This document shows positions 28,551-35,033 of a stretch of DNA of 37,619 nucleotides, piece after piece. Origin of the DNA: an uncultured Propionibacteriaceae bacterium. Its GTDB lineage: Bacteria > Actinomycetota > Actinomycetes > Propionibacteriales > Propionibacteriaceae. Made by a program: the position numbers and the translations under genes. The stretch lies in assembly GCA_902805915.1 (NCBI GenBank), contig CADCUO010000178.1, positions 1 to 37,619 on the forward strand, given 5' to 3'. The first letter of the stretch is position 1; the number at the start of each line of letters is the position of its first letter. The notes below the pieces were generated by a model, which worked only from the letters and a program-made list of their open reading frames with translations, searched no databases and was not told where the DNA came from.

Positions 28551-29432
28551 TCACTGGGCTGTGCGTTCCGTGACGGCCTCGTCCTCGGGAGCGCCCTGGT
28601 ACGAGTCCGTCAGGCCCGCGAGTCGAGCCACTCCCCATCCCATCGCCACCAGGCCGACCAGCTCACCCAGCAGCGTGCCCAGAGACGAAGAAAGCCGCTC
28701 GCCGAAGACAACGAAGCCGAACCCGGTAGCCACCAGCACATCGACGATATTGAGCACCGGCATCGACCCGGACAGCCGTGTCCCCTGGTAAGCACGTTGG
28801 TTCAGAAACAGCGCCCATGCGCCAACAGCCAGCATCACCCATGGCGGCCACTGCAGCAGCAGCCCCATGATCCCCGGGCCCGCCTCAACCAGGGTCAGCT
28901 TGACCAGACCAGCGACGAGCGCGAACAGGATCCCGCAGCAAGAACCCAACAACAAGCCACGGTTGCGTAAGGAGGGCTCCCGTCTGGTCACCAGCACTAC
29001 GACGCCGACCACCACCACGCTCACCGAGGCGAACCAGATCGCCCTGTCGATGTTCGGCGGCTGAGGAGGGCTGGAATGAGCCATGGAGATGAAAAGGGCC
29101 AGACCAGCCCAGGTGAGCCCGGCCCAGCGGAGCTCTTCGACCGATGGTAGGTGCCGATCCGCGGCGTCCCGCAGGATGACGGCGAAAACGATGCCGCTCA
29201 CCACAATCGGCTGCACCACAGAGAGCTCCCCGTACTTCAGCGCCGTTGCGTGAAGACCGAAGGCGATGCCGCTGAGGACCATTCCAGCCAGCCAACCGGG
29301 GCGGCGGGCCAGCGCCTTGACCATCTGCAGGCTGGACACCTTGGTCGATGGTCCCGCAGCGTGATGTTGGAGCGAGGTTCCGGCGGCGAAGAAGGCGGCC
29401 GAGGCGAAGGCCGCAACAATGGCGAGCGTCAT
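28551..29432 (-). CDS. DMT-superfamily (EamA/NIPA-like) membrane protein
   Basis: This 293-residue protein has about nine or ten hydrophobic segments and no other domain. It begins MTLAIVAAFASAAFFAAGTSLQHH. The pattern includes LAGMVLSGIAFGLHATALKYGELSVVQPIVVSGIVFAV in the first half and PVLNIVDVLVATGFGFVVFGERL in the second, with the ...QP... and ...GE... pairs typical of two-fold repeated drug/metabolite transporters. NIPA-type magnesium transporters are a near relative, but the substrate is unknown. The ATG at 29432 lacks a clear Shine-Dalgarno; an in-frame start at 29495 would add 21 mostly Pro/Arg residues. Confidence 0.8.
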   Translation of the reverse strand: MTLAIVAAFASAAFFAAGTSLQHHAAGPSTKVSSLQMVKALARRPGWLAGMVLSGIAFGLHATALKYGELSVVQPIVVSGIVFAVILRDAADRHLPSVEELRWAGLTWAGLALFISMAHSSPPQPPNIDRAIWFASVSVVVVGVVVLVTRREPSLRNRGLLLGSCCGILFALVAGLVKLTLVEAGPGIMGLLLQWPPWVMLAVGAWALFLNQRAYQGTRLSGSMPVLNIVDVLVATGFGFVVFGERLSSSLGTLLGELVGLVAMGWGVARLAGLTDSYQGAPEDEAVTERTAQ

Positions 29433-29749
29433 CGGTGGCGGCCTCGGTCCGCGTCCCCGATACGGAGCTGCAGGTGGCAGAAGTCGCCGCTGCACAGCCT
29501 CTGGTCACCCAACGACCGAGGACGGCGCTCCCTACGCTGCAGGGACGGGAACTCTTGTGTCACATCGGTGATCATGCTTCAGTTAGTGGTGGTGAGCAAC
29601 CAAACACTGCACTTCCTCTCCTAGCGAAGGGTGATGCTCGTGGTTTCCGCCTCCATCTTGAAGCGATGCGCTGCTCGCCGCCCGGTAGGTCGCCGGCCCA
29701 CAACCCAGCATGATTCTCCCCCAGCGCCCGTGACCGGCCCGGTCGCGCG

Positions 29750-31282
29750 ATGAAGGAGCTAGGTTCAAACGCGCTGATAGTTGTCAGTCGTGATCTTCCC
29801 ATCCAGGACCGCGGCCAACTCGAGTCAGTCTTTCACCGCGGCAGCACTCCAGGAAACCGGATCGAGGCCATCACCGCCGCGATGCACCAGCAGACCGCCA
29901 CCTGGGTCGGCGGGTGGCACGGTCCTGGCAGCGACGAAGACGGATTCACTCGCGGACGGTTCACCTTCGAGCCCGTTGTGATAGCCGACGAAGGTGAATC
30001 GGTCGAAGGAGAGTTCAGCAGCCAAACGCTGTGGCCCCTCTATCACGACATCATCGCCCACCCGGACTTTCCGCGGGCAGGCTGGGAGGCCTATCAGGAC
30101 CTCAACCGTCGCTTCGCCGACCGGATTCTCGAGGTCTCACTGCCCAACTCGGAGGTCTGGCTACTGGATCACCATCTGCAGCTGGTGCCTGCGATGCTGC
30201 GCGCGGCACGATCCGACCTGCGGATCGGGTTCTTCCTGGACATCCCGTTCCCACCACTGGAGCTTCTCTATCACCTGCCGTGGCATCGACGGATCCTTGA
30301 GGGGTTACTCGGCGCTGATCTGGTCGGCTTCCAGGCCGTTCGGCACCAGCAGAACTTCGTCGAGGCTGTGCAGGCCGCCTTCGGTCACCCGAGCCATCCC
30401 GCCGGTCTGCACCTGGGAAGCCGCCACCTACGCACCGGCACGTACCCGTTGTCCGTTGACACGGCGACATTGCGCCAACTGGCAACCGAGGAAGAAGTCG
30501 ACGAGGAGGCGAAGCTGACCCGGGCCCGACTCGGTGATCCGGAGCTGCTGATGTTGGCGTTCGACCCGCTGGACTGTACCGCCGGCATCATCGAACGGCT
30601 GCGGGCCTTCGAAGAGCTGGTCAGGGAGAAGGAGATCGACCCGCACCAGACAGTGCTGGTCCAGATCGCCACAACCTCACCAGACCAAGACGGCGGGCAG
30701 TGTGCGATGCGGGACGACATTGATCGCCTCGTCGGGCGCATCAACGGCGACGCTGCACGGTACGGCCATCCACCGGTGATCTACGTACACAGCACCGGGT
30801 CGGATACGAGGATGGCGGCGCTCTACCGTGCGGCGGACATCTTGTTGTGCACCCCGCTCAGGGACGGCATGAGCCTTTCAGCGAAGGAGTACGTGGCGTG
30901 CCGGGTCAGTGATGACGGCGCCGTCGTCCTGAGCACGCTCTCTGGTGCTGCTCAGCAGCTGACCAGCGCCTACCACGTCAACCCATACGACCTCGGCGCC
31001 TCGAAGATCGCGCTGCTACGGGCAATCCGGGACTCACCTGAGCAACGTGCTGCTCGGATGCGCCCGATGCGCCAGCAGGTCGTCAACCATGATCTGAGGC
31101 GCTGGTCTCAGCGGTTCCTGCGCGAGCTGGCCAGTCGTACGCGGGAGATCCCGTGCCCGAACCCCTCCACCGAGCGCGCCCGTGACCTTCGTCTGCTGAG
31201 GGACCAGCTCAAGGGCGCCCCACTGGCAGGTGGGCGGTGGCAGGGCTACTCCCAGGGCGGCTCGTCGCCAATCCACTCCTAG
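29750..31282 (+). CDS. Divergent trehalose-6-phosphate synthase-like GT20 protein
   Basis: This 510-residue protein is a clear GT20 homologue, with LWPLYHD, VWLLDHHLQLVPAMLR, IPFPPLELLYHLPW, LLGADLVGFQAVRHQQNF and TPLRDGMSLSAKEYVACR. By E. coli OtsA numbering from memory, Asp130 (here Asp140), Asp361 (372) and Glu369 (380) are kept. His154 is replaced by Asp164 (LDIPFP). Arg262 and Lys267 become Pro273 and Ala278 (DPLDCTAGI for DRLDYTKGI). Arg9 becomes Asp15 (VVSRDLP for VVSNRLP), and the PSR motif is lost. It may therefore have another substrate, weak activity or a regulatory role. No otsB is near. The ATG at 29750 lacks an upstream site; AAGGAG lies just inside, so the true start is uncertain. 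Confidence 0.85.
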   Translation: MKELGSNALIVVSRDLPIQDRGQLESVFHRGSTPGNRIEAITAAMHQQTATWVGGWHGPGSDEDGFTRGRFTFEPVVIADEGESVEGEFSSQTLWPLYHDIIAHPDFPRAGWEAYQDLNRRFADRILEVSLPNSEVWLLDHHLQLVPAMLRAARSDLRIGFFLDIPFPPLELLYHLPWHRRILEGLLGADLVGFQAVRHQQNFVEAVQAAFGHPSHPAGLHLGSRHLRTGTYPLSVDTATLRQLATEEEVDEEAKLTRARLGDPELLMLAFDPLDCTAGIIERLRAFEELVREKEIDPHQTVLVQIATTSPDQDGGQCAMRDDIDRLVGRINGDAARYGHPPVIYVHSTGSDTRMAALYRAADILLCTPLRDGMSLSAKEYVACRVSDDGAVVLSTLSGAAQQLTSAYHVNPYDLGASKIALLRAIRDSPEQRAARMRPMRQQVVNHDLRRWSQRFLRELASRTREIPCPNPSTERARDLRLLRDQLKGAPLAGGRWQGYSQGGSSPIHS

Positions 31283-31309
31283 GTTGGCTGCAGCCTTTAA
31301 GACGCCGAC

Positions 31310-31334
31310 GGCGGCCAGGCTAGGCCTAGCCGCC
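31310..31334. terminator. Inverted repeat between the GT20 gene and the YihY gene
   Basis: GGCGGC and GCCGCC flank the perfect palindrome GGCTAGGCCTAGCC at 31318-31331 in the 110-bp gap of two convergent genes. A terminator role is likely from position. No T tract follows. Confidence 0.5.
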
Positions 31335-31392
31335 ATCGAGCGGTTGCGGGAAATGCGCCCCACGAGGGCTAAGTCCCCTTAGTCGTTAGCTG

Positions 31393-32442
31393 TCATTGCT
31401 GGCTGTTGCCGGCAGGCAGCGAGTCGGCCTTGACGGCGCCACGCTCACCGATCGGCTCTGCCGGGCCCTTCGTGGTGTCGGCGAGGGTCTGCTCCTCAGA
31501 CTCGGCGTTGATCTCAGCGCCGAGCAAGACGGCATAGCAGGTGATCCACAGCCACAGCAGCAGCACGACCACGCCAGCCAAGGCGCCGTAGGTCTTGCCA
31601 TAGCTACCGAAGTTCGAGACATAGACGGTGAAGCCGATGGAGGCGACCACCCAGAGAACCGTCGCGATCCCCGCGCCGACGGATACCCAACGCATCTTCG
31701 GCGCGTCTCGATCGGGCGCCACCCGATACAGCACGGCCAAGGCGGCGGCCACCAAGGCCACCAGCAGCACCCAGCGAAGCACCTCAAACAGCCAGCGCAG
31801 GGGGCCGGAACCCATCAGCGCCTCCAGCAGCGGTGGCGCAACTGCCACCAGCGAGATCATGATGACCATGAACAGGATGGCACCGATCGACAACCCGAGG
31901 GCCAGCAGCTTCCGCTTGATGAAGCCACGCGTCTCGTCTTCGTCGTAGGCGGTGTTGACGGCGGTAATAAGCTGCCCGACGCCGCCGGAGGCGCTCCAGA
32001 AAGCAATAAGCAAGGAGAGGATCAGGCCGAACCCGAGCGACTGCTGCGGCGCTGACGTCAACTGCTGGAGCTGGCCTTCGAGCACGGCCCGTGCCTCACC
32101 CGGCATGTTCTGGGTCAGGGAGGCAACCTGCTCCTTCACCGTCGCGGGGTCGGCGAACAGGCCGTACAGCATGACCAGCGCGATCATGGCGGGAAACAAC
32201 GACAGAAAGCTGAAGAAGGCAACGCCGGCAGCCAGCAGCGGGACCTGATCGACCTTGGCCTCCTTGAACCCCCGCTTGACGACCTGGAGCCAGCCCCTGG
32301 GAGGGATCTCCGTCGGCTTGTTGGCATCCTGGCCCGGGACCTGCTGCGGCTTGCGGTCGGCACTCACCGGCCGATCGGTTTTCGTGGTTGCGATGGTTAT
32401 CACTCTCCTACGCGAAGGTACGGGTGTACTTAATCTCGGCAC
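31393..32442 (-). CDS. YihY/virulence factor BrkB family membrane protein
   Basis: This 349-residue protein has the six-helix BrkB/YihY core between about residues 60 and 310, including VPLLAAGVAFFSFLSLFPAM, the family's most conserved segment, and the terminal WLWITCYAVLLGAEINAESE. A polar N-terminus of about 50 residues and a charged C-terminal tail extend the core. The family's function is unsettled; it was long mistaken for RNase BN. The GTG at 32442 follows TAAACT by 12 nt, so a very short leader is possible. A downstream GTG at 32403 sits against AGGAGA and cannot be excluded. Confidence 0.87.
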   Translation of the reverse strand: MPRLSTPVPSRRRVITIATTKTDRPVSADRKPQQVPGQDANKPTEIPPRGWLQVVKRGFKEAKVDQVPLLAAGVAFFSFLSLFPAMIALVMLYGLFADPATVKEQVASLTQNMPGEARAVLEGQLQQLTSAPQQSLGFGLILSLLIAFWSASGGVGQLITAVNTAYDEDETRGFIKRKLLALGLSIGAILFMVIMISLVAVAPPLLEALMGSGPLRWLFEVLRWVLLVALVAAALAVLYRVAPDRDAPKMRWVSVGAGIATVLWVVASIGFTVYVSNFGSYGKTYGALAGVVVLLLWLWITCYAVLLGAEINAESEEQTLADTTKGPAEPIGERGAVKADSLPAGNSQQ

Positions 32443-32510: not shown

Positions 32511-32804
32511 TCAGTCGGAATTGATGTCGTCCCGGTCAAGGTCGTTCCGGCGGGTGCCGGGGCGTGCGAACTCCAGCACATGCGACACCTCCTCAGCGGA
32601 GGCGCTGTCGCTGAATCGAGCAAGCTTGTGCGATCCGTCGCACAGCGGTTTCAGGCGCGAGCGCCCGCAACGACATAGCGCCACCACCGAGCGGTCAGTC
32701 TGGATCACGCGCCCGTCCGCGCTGCGGAGCTCGAAGCATCCGCGGACCAGCAGCGGCCCGTCCGGGTACACGGTGATCGTGGCCGGGTCGGCGTGTTCGC
32801 TCAC
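32511..32804 (-). CDS. CDGSH iron-sulfur domain protein
   Basis: This 97-residue protein holds a single CDGSH (mitoNEET-type) motif that binds a redox-active 2Fe-2S cluster through three Cys and one His. They are Cys44, Cys46, Cys55 and His59, in CRCGRSRLKPLCDGSH, a perfect match to the C-x-C-x2-S-x3-P-x-C-D-G-S-H pattern. The rest is a small beta fold with the family start ITVYPDGPLLVRG. The GTG start overlaps the stop of the HDO-like gene (GTGA), so the two are translationally coupled. This suggests it delivers or accepts electrons for the upstream enzyme. The C-terminal 20 residues are charged (RRNDLDRDDINSD). Confidence 0.95.
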   Translation of the reverse strand: MSEHADPATITVYPDGPLLVRGCFELRSADGRVIQTDRSVVALCRCGRSRLKPLCDGSHKLARFSDSASAEEVSHVLEFARPGTRRNDLDRDDINSD

Positions 32805-33907
32805 CAGCCACCCACCGACCGCAGACTGGACTGAGACGCTGACCACCGCTCGGTGAGGCGGATCGCGAACTGCTCGTCAGCGAAGTAGGCGCAGCTTGCT
32901 CCAAAGACCACATCGCCAGCCAGGGCCGGTTCGGCCGCCACCAGGCCGCCCGCGAGGTCGTGCGCGGCAATCTGTTCGTGCGCCGCGTCGGCAACCACGT
33001 GCTCGTCGAAGAACCGGGCAGCAGCGTCATCGCCACCGAGCCGGCGATGCCCGCGGGCGTACCGTGAGTTGGGAGTCGAGGAGGTCATCTCGAACATCGC
33101 GAGGTGGCCAACCAGCGCGCCACGCCATCGCCGATTGATACCGAACATCGAGATGATGTTGCTCGACAGCAAGGTCACCGCCGGTACCAGGTCCAGGTAG
33201 TGGCCGTAGCTCGTGTCCAGCCCCCAGCTTCGCATCAGCCCCCGGAACAGCTGGGCATGCATCGCGCCGGTGCGACCCGACCCGTACTCGTCCGCCTGGA
33301 TGGTGACGAGTGCCGCCTTCACCGATCCACTCATTCGAGGGATCGCCCAACTGTGCGGGTCCGCCTCTTTCAGGTGGTAGATCGAACGGTGGATCAAGAA
33401 CTCACGGAACTGCTCAGCGTCGGCGTCACGCATCAAGGCACGTGACAGGGAAGGACCGTCGTCGCGCGCGGCAATGGAGTTGAGACGCGCAATCACCGAC
33501 TCGACCCCAGATTCGCTCATGCTGTCCGGGGTACCGACTGCAAGGGCAAGGCTGGCCAGCAGCGTGTCCTCCCACGCCAGCCGAGCCCGGATCAGGCCGG
33601 GATGCCACTCCCATTCGTCTGACACACCGGCCAAACCGCGATAGTGCAGCTCATAGCTCAACCACAGTGCCAGCTGCAGGTCCTCATCCAGCGCGGCTGT
33701 CTCCAGCTCTCCGGTCCAGTGCAGCTCCGGTCCCAAAGTGAGTTCGCCGGGACTGCGCTGCAGAGCGCCGATCAGCGCCGCCGATACCTGCCCTCTCGGG
33801 GGCGGCAGCACCACGGGTTGATCGTGCAGGGACACGTCGTACGAGCGGGCCCCGGCCGGGTTCGCCACTGGCGACGGCGTCTGGTGGGACCCCGCCTGCA
33901 ACGTCAC
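32801..33907 (-). CDS. Iron-containing redox enzyme, heme-oxygenase-like (HDO) fold
   Basis: This 368-residue protein resembles the Haem_oxygenas_2 / iron-containing redox enzyme family, relatives of heme-oxygenase-like diiron oxidases and oxygenases (HDO group, for example UndA, BesC and SznF). Helical segments carry candidate metal ligands in FLIHRSIYHLKEADPHSW (residues 170-187), QADEYGSGR with HAQLFRGLM (205-225) and FFDEHVVADAAHEQIAAH (299-316). I cannot fix which residues bind metal. The start is a GTG at 33907 with GAAGG only 2 nt upstream, so the N-terminus is uncertain; homology seems to begin near residue 40. It is coupled to the CDGSH gene. The substrate is unknown. Confidence 0.82.
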   Translation of the reverse strand: MTLQAGSHQTPSPVANPAGARSYDVSLHDQPVVLPPPRGQVSAALIGALQRSPGELTLGPELHWTGELETAALDEDLQLALWLSYELHYRGLAGVSDEWEWHPGLIRARLAWEDTLLASLALAVGTPDSMSESGVESVIARLNSIAARDDGPSLSRALMRDADAEQFREFLIHRSIYHLKEADPHSWAIPRMSGSVKAALVTIQADEYGSGRTGAMHAQLFRGLMRSWGLDTSYGHYLDLVPAVTLLSSNIISMFGINRRWRGALVGHLAMFEMTSSTPNSRYARGHRRLGGDDAAARFFDEHVVADAAHEQIAAHDLAGGLVAAEPALAGDVVFGASCAYFADEQFAIRLTERWSASQSSLRSVGGW

Positions 33908-34204: not shown

Positions 34205-34816
34205 TCACTTCCTCCCGAGTCGATTGCCGCGGCGGCCAGTGGTCCGGGCTGCCTTAGCCGCAGCGCCAACCTCTGTCGTCTCCCCGCTGGATGCTGTGAT
34301 GCCAGCGTTGTTCTCCAGATGGGCCCGGATGAACCACTGGAACAGCTCCAGCTGCTTGGTGTGGTCGATCAGCATGTCCTCGGTGACGGGGTCCACGTCG
34401 CTCACGGCTGTGATCGCCGCCCGCTCGTCGGAGATGACACCGTCGTAGACCAGGTTCAGTGCTGCCAGGTGCTCAACGGTGGAGGCGCGGCCGAGGGAGT
34501 ACTCGTTCCAGGTTCGGTCGGACGCGATTGCACCTGGAGTGCCCACCGGCGCGACACCAAGGGTCGCCATCCTCTCGGCGGTTTCGTCCACCATGGCGCG
34601 CACGGCGTCGATCTGTGGGTCCAACATCTCGTGCACACCGATGAAGTCAGGACCCACCACGTTCCAGTGCGCATGCTTGAGGGTCAGCTGCAAGTCGTTG
34701 AGTGCATGCAGCCGCATCTGGAGAATGTCCCCCACGCCGTGGCCCTCTTCCAGACCTATGCCTGGAACGGTGTAGTCGCTGTCAGGTCCAGCCTTCTTCG
34801 TCGTTCGAACAGCCAT
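34205..34816 (-). CDS. dps: Dps-family DNA-binding ferritin-like protein
   Basis: Dps forms a dodecameric cage that oxidises and stores iron and protects DNA from peroxide. The 203-residue product has the intersubunit ferroxidase site with His50 (HAHWNVVG), His62 and Asp66 (FIGVHEMLD), Asp77 and Glu81, aligning with E. coli His51, His63, Asp67, Asp78 and Glu82. A C-terminal tail rich in basic residues (KAARTTGRRGNRLGRK) could bind DNA. I start at the ATG at 34816, with AAGG 8 nt upstream. Upstream in-frame starts at 34858 and 34975 exist, but the longer one would translate the tandem repeats. Downstream genes also concern iron. Confidence 0.94.
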   Translation of the reverse strand: MAVRTTKKAGPDSDYTVPGIGLEEGHGVGDILQMRLHALNDLQLTLKHAHWNVVGPDFIGVHEMLDPQIDAVRAMVDETAERMATLGVAPVGTPGAIASDRTWNEYSLGRASTVEHLAALNLVYDGVISDERAAITAVSDVDPVTEDMLIDHTKQLELFQWFIRAHLENNAGITASSGETTEVGAAAKAARTTGRRGNRLGRK

Positions 34817-34873
34817 TCTCTGCGCCTTTCGTCGGATTCGCCTGGCGGCCGACGTCATCGTCACCGCGCCTGT

Positions 34874-34969
34874 CTGCACACCCAGTGACGTGTGTGCTCT
34901 GCACACCCGATCGTGTTGTGCGCTCTGCCCCCCGTGATGGGGTGCTCTGCACACCCAGTGATGTGGTGC
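34874..34969. repeat. Four degenerate tandem units upstream of dps
   Basis: Units begin at 34874, 34899, 34925 and 34947, each opening CTGCACACCC or a variant and ending GTGCT, with lengths 25, 26, 22 and 23 bp. Junctions form GTGTGC-TCT-GCACAC, a perfect 6-bp inverted repeat at 34892-34906, and less perfect versions at the other two. They lie 58-153 bp upstream of the dps ATG, so they may be a set of operator sites. They share no sequence with the 2234-2423 array. Confidence 0.85.
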
Positions 34970-35033
34970 CGACAACGACTGTACGACGCACCTTCAGAGC
35001 GGGGCATCCGGGTGGCTGTCCAGCCGAGAGGAG

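Follow-up and report, generated by a model that had tools for sequence, protein, structure and literature searches.

A diverged OtsA paralogue of Propionibacteriaceae with replaced phosphate contacts is a candidate bacterial GT20 pseudoenzyme

Pseudoenzymes of the glycosyltransferase family GT20 are, as a kind, already known in eukaryotes. The N-terminal domain of Candida albicans Tps2, part of a longer protein named as a phosphatase, has a fold like that of trehalose-6-phosphate (T6P) synthase (TPS) and is inactive. Plants and yeast have non-catalytic TPS homologues, many of them fusions in gene families, whose existence is a recognised puzzle. The yeast proteins Tps3 and Tsl1 and a number of plant TPS homologues are described as extra copies that lack contact residues, including Arg262, that are under selection and that have regulatory or unknown roles (PMC1769515). 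Other members of GT20 have changed their reaction. The pseudo-glycosyltransferases VldE and ValL are true enzymes that keep Arg, Lys, His, Asp and Glu contacts, and the available sections of the VldE study describe its contacts to the ribose phosphate and to the donor cyclitol as conserved with OtsA (PMC3441724). The actinobacterial OtsA of Arthrobacter A3 is an active enzyme that also has a structural, self-assembling role; its assembly is promoted by T6P, and the active-site mutant R36A no longer assembled with T6P (PMC5685639). In Thermoproteus, a glycosyltransferase is described as activating TPS-TPP by complex formation (PMC3634074). Among the papers listed in searches of the open-access literature, where subscription journals are mostly absent, no title or start of abstract pointed to a bacterial GT20 pseudoenzyme paralogue.

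We analysed a window, that is, the whole stretch of 37,619 nucleotides, from an uncultured Propionibacteriaceae bacterium. It contains an open reading frame that begins with ATG and has no internal stop codon (Table 1). The encoded protein, termed the window protein, belongs to GT20 with a match of 332.7 bits to Pfam PF00982 (cut-off 32.5). It scores 370.3 bits in the NCBIfam OtsA equivalog model, below the cut-off of 564.85, which alone proves little since the canonical OtsA of the same genome also falls short (543.4 bits). The window protein is 42-49% identical to 43 actinobacterial OtsAs and 29% identical to E. coli OtsA, and its closest solved relative by sequence is the OtsA of Mycobacterium thermoresistibile (E 5.4e-110). 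An AlphaFold model built from a 28-row alignment (mean pLDDT 77.3, pTM 0.79) superimposes best on this OtsA (5jij; Z 42.4, rmsd 2.6, 447 residues). The Tps2 N-terminal domain (5dxf) follows with Z 38.8 and rmsd 3.0 over 447 residues, at an identity of only 23%, and VldE and ValL give Z 33.7-34.7. The predicted structure indicates that the GT-B fold of OtsA is retained, and the claim of an earlier note on this DNA that the OtsA scaffold is kept thus agrees with both the profile match and the model. Model confidence is low (pLDDT <50) at residues 1-6, 23-36, 82-84, 100-102, 311-316, 474-478 and 486-510; the stretches 23-36 and 311-316 bear contacts, which counts against the explanation favoured below. 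A promoter scan of positions 29400-31450 found no promoter-like site near the start of the gene, and the sequence just 5' of the ATG in the window contains no clear ribosome-binding site; both points likewise weigh against that explanation.

Table 1. Positions in the window of the variant gene, its altered or retained motifs and its convergent neighbour
Feature	Coordinates	Strand	Basis
Candidate GT20 (OtsA-like) pseudoenzyme gene, 510 aa	29750..31282	+	ORF, Pfam, AlphaFold model compared with OtsA structures
SRDLP (residues 13-17) for canonical NRLP; Arg9 (glucose 6-phosphate (G6P) phosphate) to Asp, orthologue Gln	29786..29800	+	Alignment
PGNRI for PGGLV; Gly22 of the donor-phosphate loop to Asn, then Arg, in both variants	29849..29863	+	Alignment
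DHH; Asp130 kept, Tyr131 to His in both variants	30167..30175	+	Alignment
LDIPFP (residues 163-168) for LHIPFP; His154 to Asp in both variants	30236..30253	+	Alignment
DPLDCTAG (residues 272-279) for DRLDYTKG; Arg262 to Pro (orthologue Gln), Lys267 to Ala in both	30563..30586	+	Alignment
TSP (residues 309-311) for PSR; Arg300 (G6P phosphate) to Pro, orthologue Asp	30674..30682	+	Alignment
Asp352 at the E. coli Arg341 column, same in both variants	30803..30805	+	Alignment
RDGMSLSAKE (residues 371-380), donor-sugar/ribose floor kept; Asn364 to Ser in both	30860..30889	+	Alignment
C-terminal tail, pattern KGxPxAxxRWxGxSxGGSS common to both variants	31211..31279	+	Sequence comparison; low model confidence
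YihY/BrkB-family membrane protein, convergent neighbour that adjoins the variant in both genomes	31393..32442	-	Pfam, synteny; context only

A sole orthologue was found, in a genome of the same genus (G016); it is 63% identical (62-63%) and has its right-hand neighbours in common with the window. These two proteins are referred to as the variants. With thresholds that exclude canonical OtsA, the variant occurs in 2 of 20 genomes of the genus and in 2 of 198 genomes of the family. Among 391 genomes of the order there were again two matches, with 1116 and 1095 bits, the next match having 512 bits. At class level (394 genomes sampled) and phylum level (396), in samples that did not include G016, the only match was in the window's own genome, which was counted in every sample. 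The order, class and phylum searches scored the three best candidates per genome, and the thresholds would miss relatives below ~48% identity. When contigs were scanned with patterns derived from the window protein, the single locus recovered was a canonical OtsA at 43%, and no further orthologue came up. Viral contigs held no relative of the variant, 358 plasmid records held no orthologue (all <60% identity, the best-ranked at 43%), and a defence-system library had no match for either variant.

In a phylogenetic tree the two variants form one group (100/100) whose long stem (3.15) arises within actinobacterial OtsA, although their exact placement is unsure because the branches are long. The stem predates the split of the two species, and the terminal branches measure 0.47 and 0.59 for the variant pair versus 0.12 and 0.039 for the canonical pair of the same genomes. 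Since just two members are known, whatever is said of the group derives from a single pair, which also counts against the favoured explanation.

Two GT20 genes were found in the available contigs of the genome, which amounts to 3.16 Mb in 250 contigs and is 84% complete. The second, a canonical otsA whose presence the earlier note had proposed to check, is located on contig C138 (478 bits), where it adjoins a divergent otsB. This is the single otsB match (PF02358) in the contigs of the 84% complete genome; none lies within the window, in line with the earlier remark that otsB is absent nearby. Because the canonical otsA is found beside otsB on another contig, the variant is an extra paralogue. 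Both variant-bearing genomes have a canonical otsA and an otsB, and the presence of an active-looking paralogue in the same genome resembles the situation of Tps3 and Tsl1. Those proteins and the plant homologues, which we liken to the variant by description, are eukaryotic and mostly TPS-TPP fusions, whereas the variant is a bacterial stand-alone protein whose branch lies among the actinobacterial OtsAs. The variant gene adjoins neither otsA nor otsB, which counts against a link to OtsA. We reject contamination of the bin, as the canonical OtsAs of this genome and the orthologue genome share 89% identity.

To compare substrate contacts we used lists drawn from the available parts of PMC1769515, PMC3441724, PMC6879718 and PMC5247666, with E. 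coli numbering without Met, so that Trp40 of the paper is column 41 here. The canonical set comprises the 43 sequences fetched as loci, each place counted once and matches listed without a locus left out. Each of the 17 contact columns examined is invariant in these 43 OtsAs and in E. coli OtsA. In the two variants, seven are kept (Trp85, Asp130, Asp361, Gly362, Met363, Leu365 and Glu369), among them the donor-sugar and ribose contacts Asp361 and Glu369. Five are replaced alike (Gly22 by Asn, Tyr131 by His, His154 by Asp, Lys267 by Ala and Asn364 by Ser). Four are replaced differently in the window protein and the orthologue, namely Arg9 (Asp/Gln), Tyr76 (Glu/Asp), Arg262 (Pro/Gln) and Arg300 (Pro/Asp), and Trp41 is changed in the orthologue only. 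None of the four phosphate contacts Arg9, Arg262, Lys267 and Arg300 is kept in either variant; all four are present in 43/43 canonical OtsAs. Moreover, the column of the ribose contact Arg341 of E. coli, which is Arg in 41 canonical sequences and Lys in the remaining two, has Asp in both variants. Judged from the alignments, both known members have lost their grips on the donor diphosphate (Arg262, Lys267, Gly22 and His154) and on the G6P phosphate (Arg9, Tyr76, Arg300 and Tyr131). The variant thus resembles the OtsAs of E. coli and M. thermoresistibile in fold, length, the RDGMxLxAKE loop, Asp130 and Trp85, and differs from them in its donor-phosphate and acceptor-phosphate contacts.

The motif changes quoted in the earlier note (SRDLP, LDIPFP, DPLDCTAG and the replacement of PSR, by TSP) are all present, and the Asp and Glu of the RDGMxLxAKE loop are indeed retained, as Asp372 and Glu380 in window protein numbering. 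The changes at Gly22, Tyr76, Tyr131, Asn364 and the Arg341 column had not been named there. The segment of the orthologue that matches LDIPFP reads IDIPFP. The third position of DHH, which is Gln in 42/43 canonical OtsAs, is His in E. coli OtsA also. The orthologue restores 0/9 of the contacts replaced in the window protein. The suspicion that the changes might be random between species, which would point to decay, applies in part: five contacts are replaced alike, but the four that differ show some randomness of this kind.

Replacement is concentrated at the contacts. Among invariant columns, 10/17 contacts are changed versus 15/72 others (Fisher p = 0.005), and with the 11-residue contact list of PMC1769515 the numbers are 7/11 versus 18/78 (p = 0.010). 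The 17 contacts were extended by columns 132 and 341 to a set of 19, in which the reading of columns 41 and 76 depends on which of two sequence sets is aligned; the remaining 17 columns read alike in 8/8 alignments, and Tyr76 is lost in all eight. We then asked what divergence alone does to these contacts. A second GT20 paralogue was seen in another family of the same order (8 genomes, E <1e-30), and four of these genomes were fetched (loci L075, L076, L077 and L078; it is also seen in genomes G038, G041, G053 and G056). The four paralogues are 32-36% identical to their own canonical OtsA over the aligned part. Although this divergence exceeds that of the window protein, they retain 16/17 contacts, the only one changed being the doubtful column 41, so age alone does not account for the contact loss. 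The VldE contacts described as conserved with OtsA (PMC3441724) point the same way.

On balance, we lean towards the view that the variant is an otsA paralogue that has lost its T6P synthase activity and is maintained for some non-catalytic function. A pseudoenzyme is favoured because the Arg-Lys pair of the donor diphosphate and the Arg residues of the acceptor phosphate are gone and because four replacements differ between the two species, unlike what would be expected of a reinvented catalytic site. In the proposed mechanism the starting point is that the fold, as modelled, is kept and the phosphate grips are lost. NDP-sugar and sugar phosphate would then no longer be held productively, and no T6P would be made. 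Regarding this first part, the residue changes make it very probable that the variant is inactive as a synthase. In Candida albicans Tps1, the K285A exchange of the donor-phosphate Lys alone is described as leaving no detectable activity (PMC5527307), and from the Arg-Lys pair described there we read K285 as the K267 column. Since both variants have Ala at Lys267 and eight further contacts replaced in both, T6P synthesis would not be expected. The second part of the mechanism is more tentative. The variant would function through protein contact, most simply in a mixed oligomer with the catalytic OtsA encoded elsewhere, and might in this way tune trehalose synthesis or OtsA assembly. Precedents are the yeast and plant homologues, without contact residues and under selection (PMC1769515), the activation of TPS-TPP by a glycosyltransferase in Thermoproteus (PMC3634074) and the self-assembly of Arthrobacter OtsA (PMC5685639). 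In contrast to Arthrobacter OtsA, the variant has lost the contacts to the T6P phosphate, and a role in T6P-driven assembly is disfavoured because the R36A OtsA lost assembly and the variant has no phosphate grips. The kept sugar floor (Asp361, Gly362, Met363, Leu365, Glu369, Asp130 and Trp85) could serve to sense a neutral sugar. A stand-alone bacterial pair of a dead and a live protein, separately expressible, would allow a simple test of control by a dead GT20 protein. The case also cautions that a family match alone is insufficient to annotate such genes as otsA.

The earlier note had offered two readings of the changes, either a new donor or a new acceptor on the one hand and a pseudoenzyme with a regulatory role on the other; of these the pseudoenzyme is favoured, its regulatory role being plausible, and the first less so. 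A new enzyme, with a pocket rebuilt for a phosphate-free or positively charged substrate such as an amino sugar, would fit the kept sugar floor. It would also fit the 43 columns that are identical between both variants yet unlike the canonical consensus (>=90%), which include new Arg in the N-terminal loop region and the His at Tyr131. The summed charge over the 19 columns is +2 in 43/43 canonical OtsAs and -7 in both variants in the main alignment, reached by partly different residues, and -6 in the orthologue if column 76 is read as Cys. Considering only substituted columns that are conserved and non-acidic in the canonical set, acidic residues were introduced at 4/11 contact versus 5/63 other columns in the window protein (p = 0.024) and at 4/12 versus 2/64 in the orthologue (p = 0.005), two tests that are dependent because changes are shared between the variants. 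The proteins as a whole are not acidified, with a pI of 6.0 and 6.3 for the variants versus 5.4 and 5.0 for the canonical pair. An altered ligand is possible, as acidic residues replace contacts more often than other conserved columns, and this enrichment is compatible with a new ligand and with simple loss alike. However, the replacements at Arg9, Tyr76, Arg262 and Arg300 differ between the two species, the leaving phosphate is described as the base in OtsA and VldE (PMC3441724) and the residues that hold it are gone, and a Pfam scan of 18 window ORFs picked out no biosynthetic cluster, whether for an aminocyclitol or a sugar antibiotic. Since five replaced contacts are alike and four different, with the charge shifting from +2 to -7, we regard a new nucleotide-sugar enzyme as unlikely and a conserved pseudoenzyme as likely. 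A VldE-like enzyme is ruled out, the Arg262, Lys267 and His154 columns being replaced in both variants. We give little credence to a combined scheme in which the cleft turned acidic under selection and may bind a cationic ligand (amino sugar, polyamine or metal), so that the variant would sense it and control OtsA via a mixed oligomer.

It is improbable that the variant has a moonlighting or structural task apart from trehalose, such as one in the envelope or in iron biology alongside its conserved neighbours. The four right-hand neighbours, a YihY/BrkB protein, a haem-oxygenase-like protein, a ferritin-like protein and a penicillin-binding protein, lie in the same order in G016 (74-79% identity), which would suit such a role; synteny is, however, expected between close species anyway. 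Furthermore, YihY is found in 17/20 genus genomes, whereas the variant is absent from 15 YihY loci of other genomes, where no remnants of it were seen in flanks of up to ~1.5 kb. The left-hand window ORFs tested had no match in 38 kb of the G016 contig (18000-56240 of 56240), with the exception of one 56-residue stretch matching ~15 kb away.

Both genes evolve under constraint. We estimated dN/dS by NG86 at a dS of ~0.9-1.3, which makes the ratios rough, and obtained 0.255 for the variant pair (60 bootstraps, 5-95% 0.211-0.297). For the canonical otsA pair of these genomes the ratio was 0.074, and for the neighbours it was 0.171 (YihY), 0.147 (haem-oxygenase-like), 0.109 (ferritin-like) and 0.162 (penicillin-binding protein). 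The variant is thus the least constrained of the six gene pairs, which counts against the favoured explanation, but it is clearly constrained still. In neutral simulations, in which each present-day gene received 0.5 substitutions per site (about half the pair dS of 1.1) and no indels, both frames stayed free of stops in 0/300 runs at each of two base compositions, with a mean of 6.8 to 9.2 stops per lineage; the real genes have none. Together, the coding sequences show the variant gene to be under purifying selection, so that contact residues have been lost while coding constraint persists, the combination looked for in a GT20 pseudoenzyme. A chance ORF is ruled out by the profile match, the orthologue and selection. 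The reading as a decaying duplicate, a redundant otsA copy en route to loss with its frame open by chance or by a recent shut-down, would account for the highest dN/dS, the long terminal branches, the presence in only 2/20 genus genomes and the four unlike contact replacements, but is distinctly unlikely because both frames are open, dN/dS is 0.255 with an upper bootstrap point (95%) of 0.297 and no neutral simulation stayed open, and because the long stem was already shared before the species split; a very recent shut-down is compatible with these averages.

Several further features of the loci were observed. The synteny between the window and G016 (L054) ends at the variant gene, the right side being conserved and the left side different in the stretch compared. 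In G016, an ORF that by eye resembles a sensor kinase precedes the variant orthologue. In the window, 28551-29495 (-) encodes a hydrophobic 314-aa protein that looks like a membrane transporter by eye, has no Pfam match at E 0.001 and has no match in the G016 stretch compared. The tail pattern RWxGxSxGGSS at the C-terminus of the variants (orthologue L004) is absent from the genome's own canonical OtsA, to which the tail does not align. Where a genome has a second GT20 paralogue, ~7-26 kb separate it from that genome's GT20 gene with the better match. Finally, the genes for the haem-oxygenase-like iron protein (32801-33907, -) and the ferritin-like protein (34205-34975, -) are found near each other in both variant-bearing genomes.
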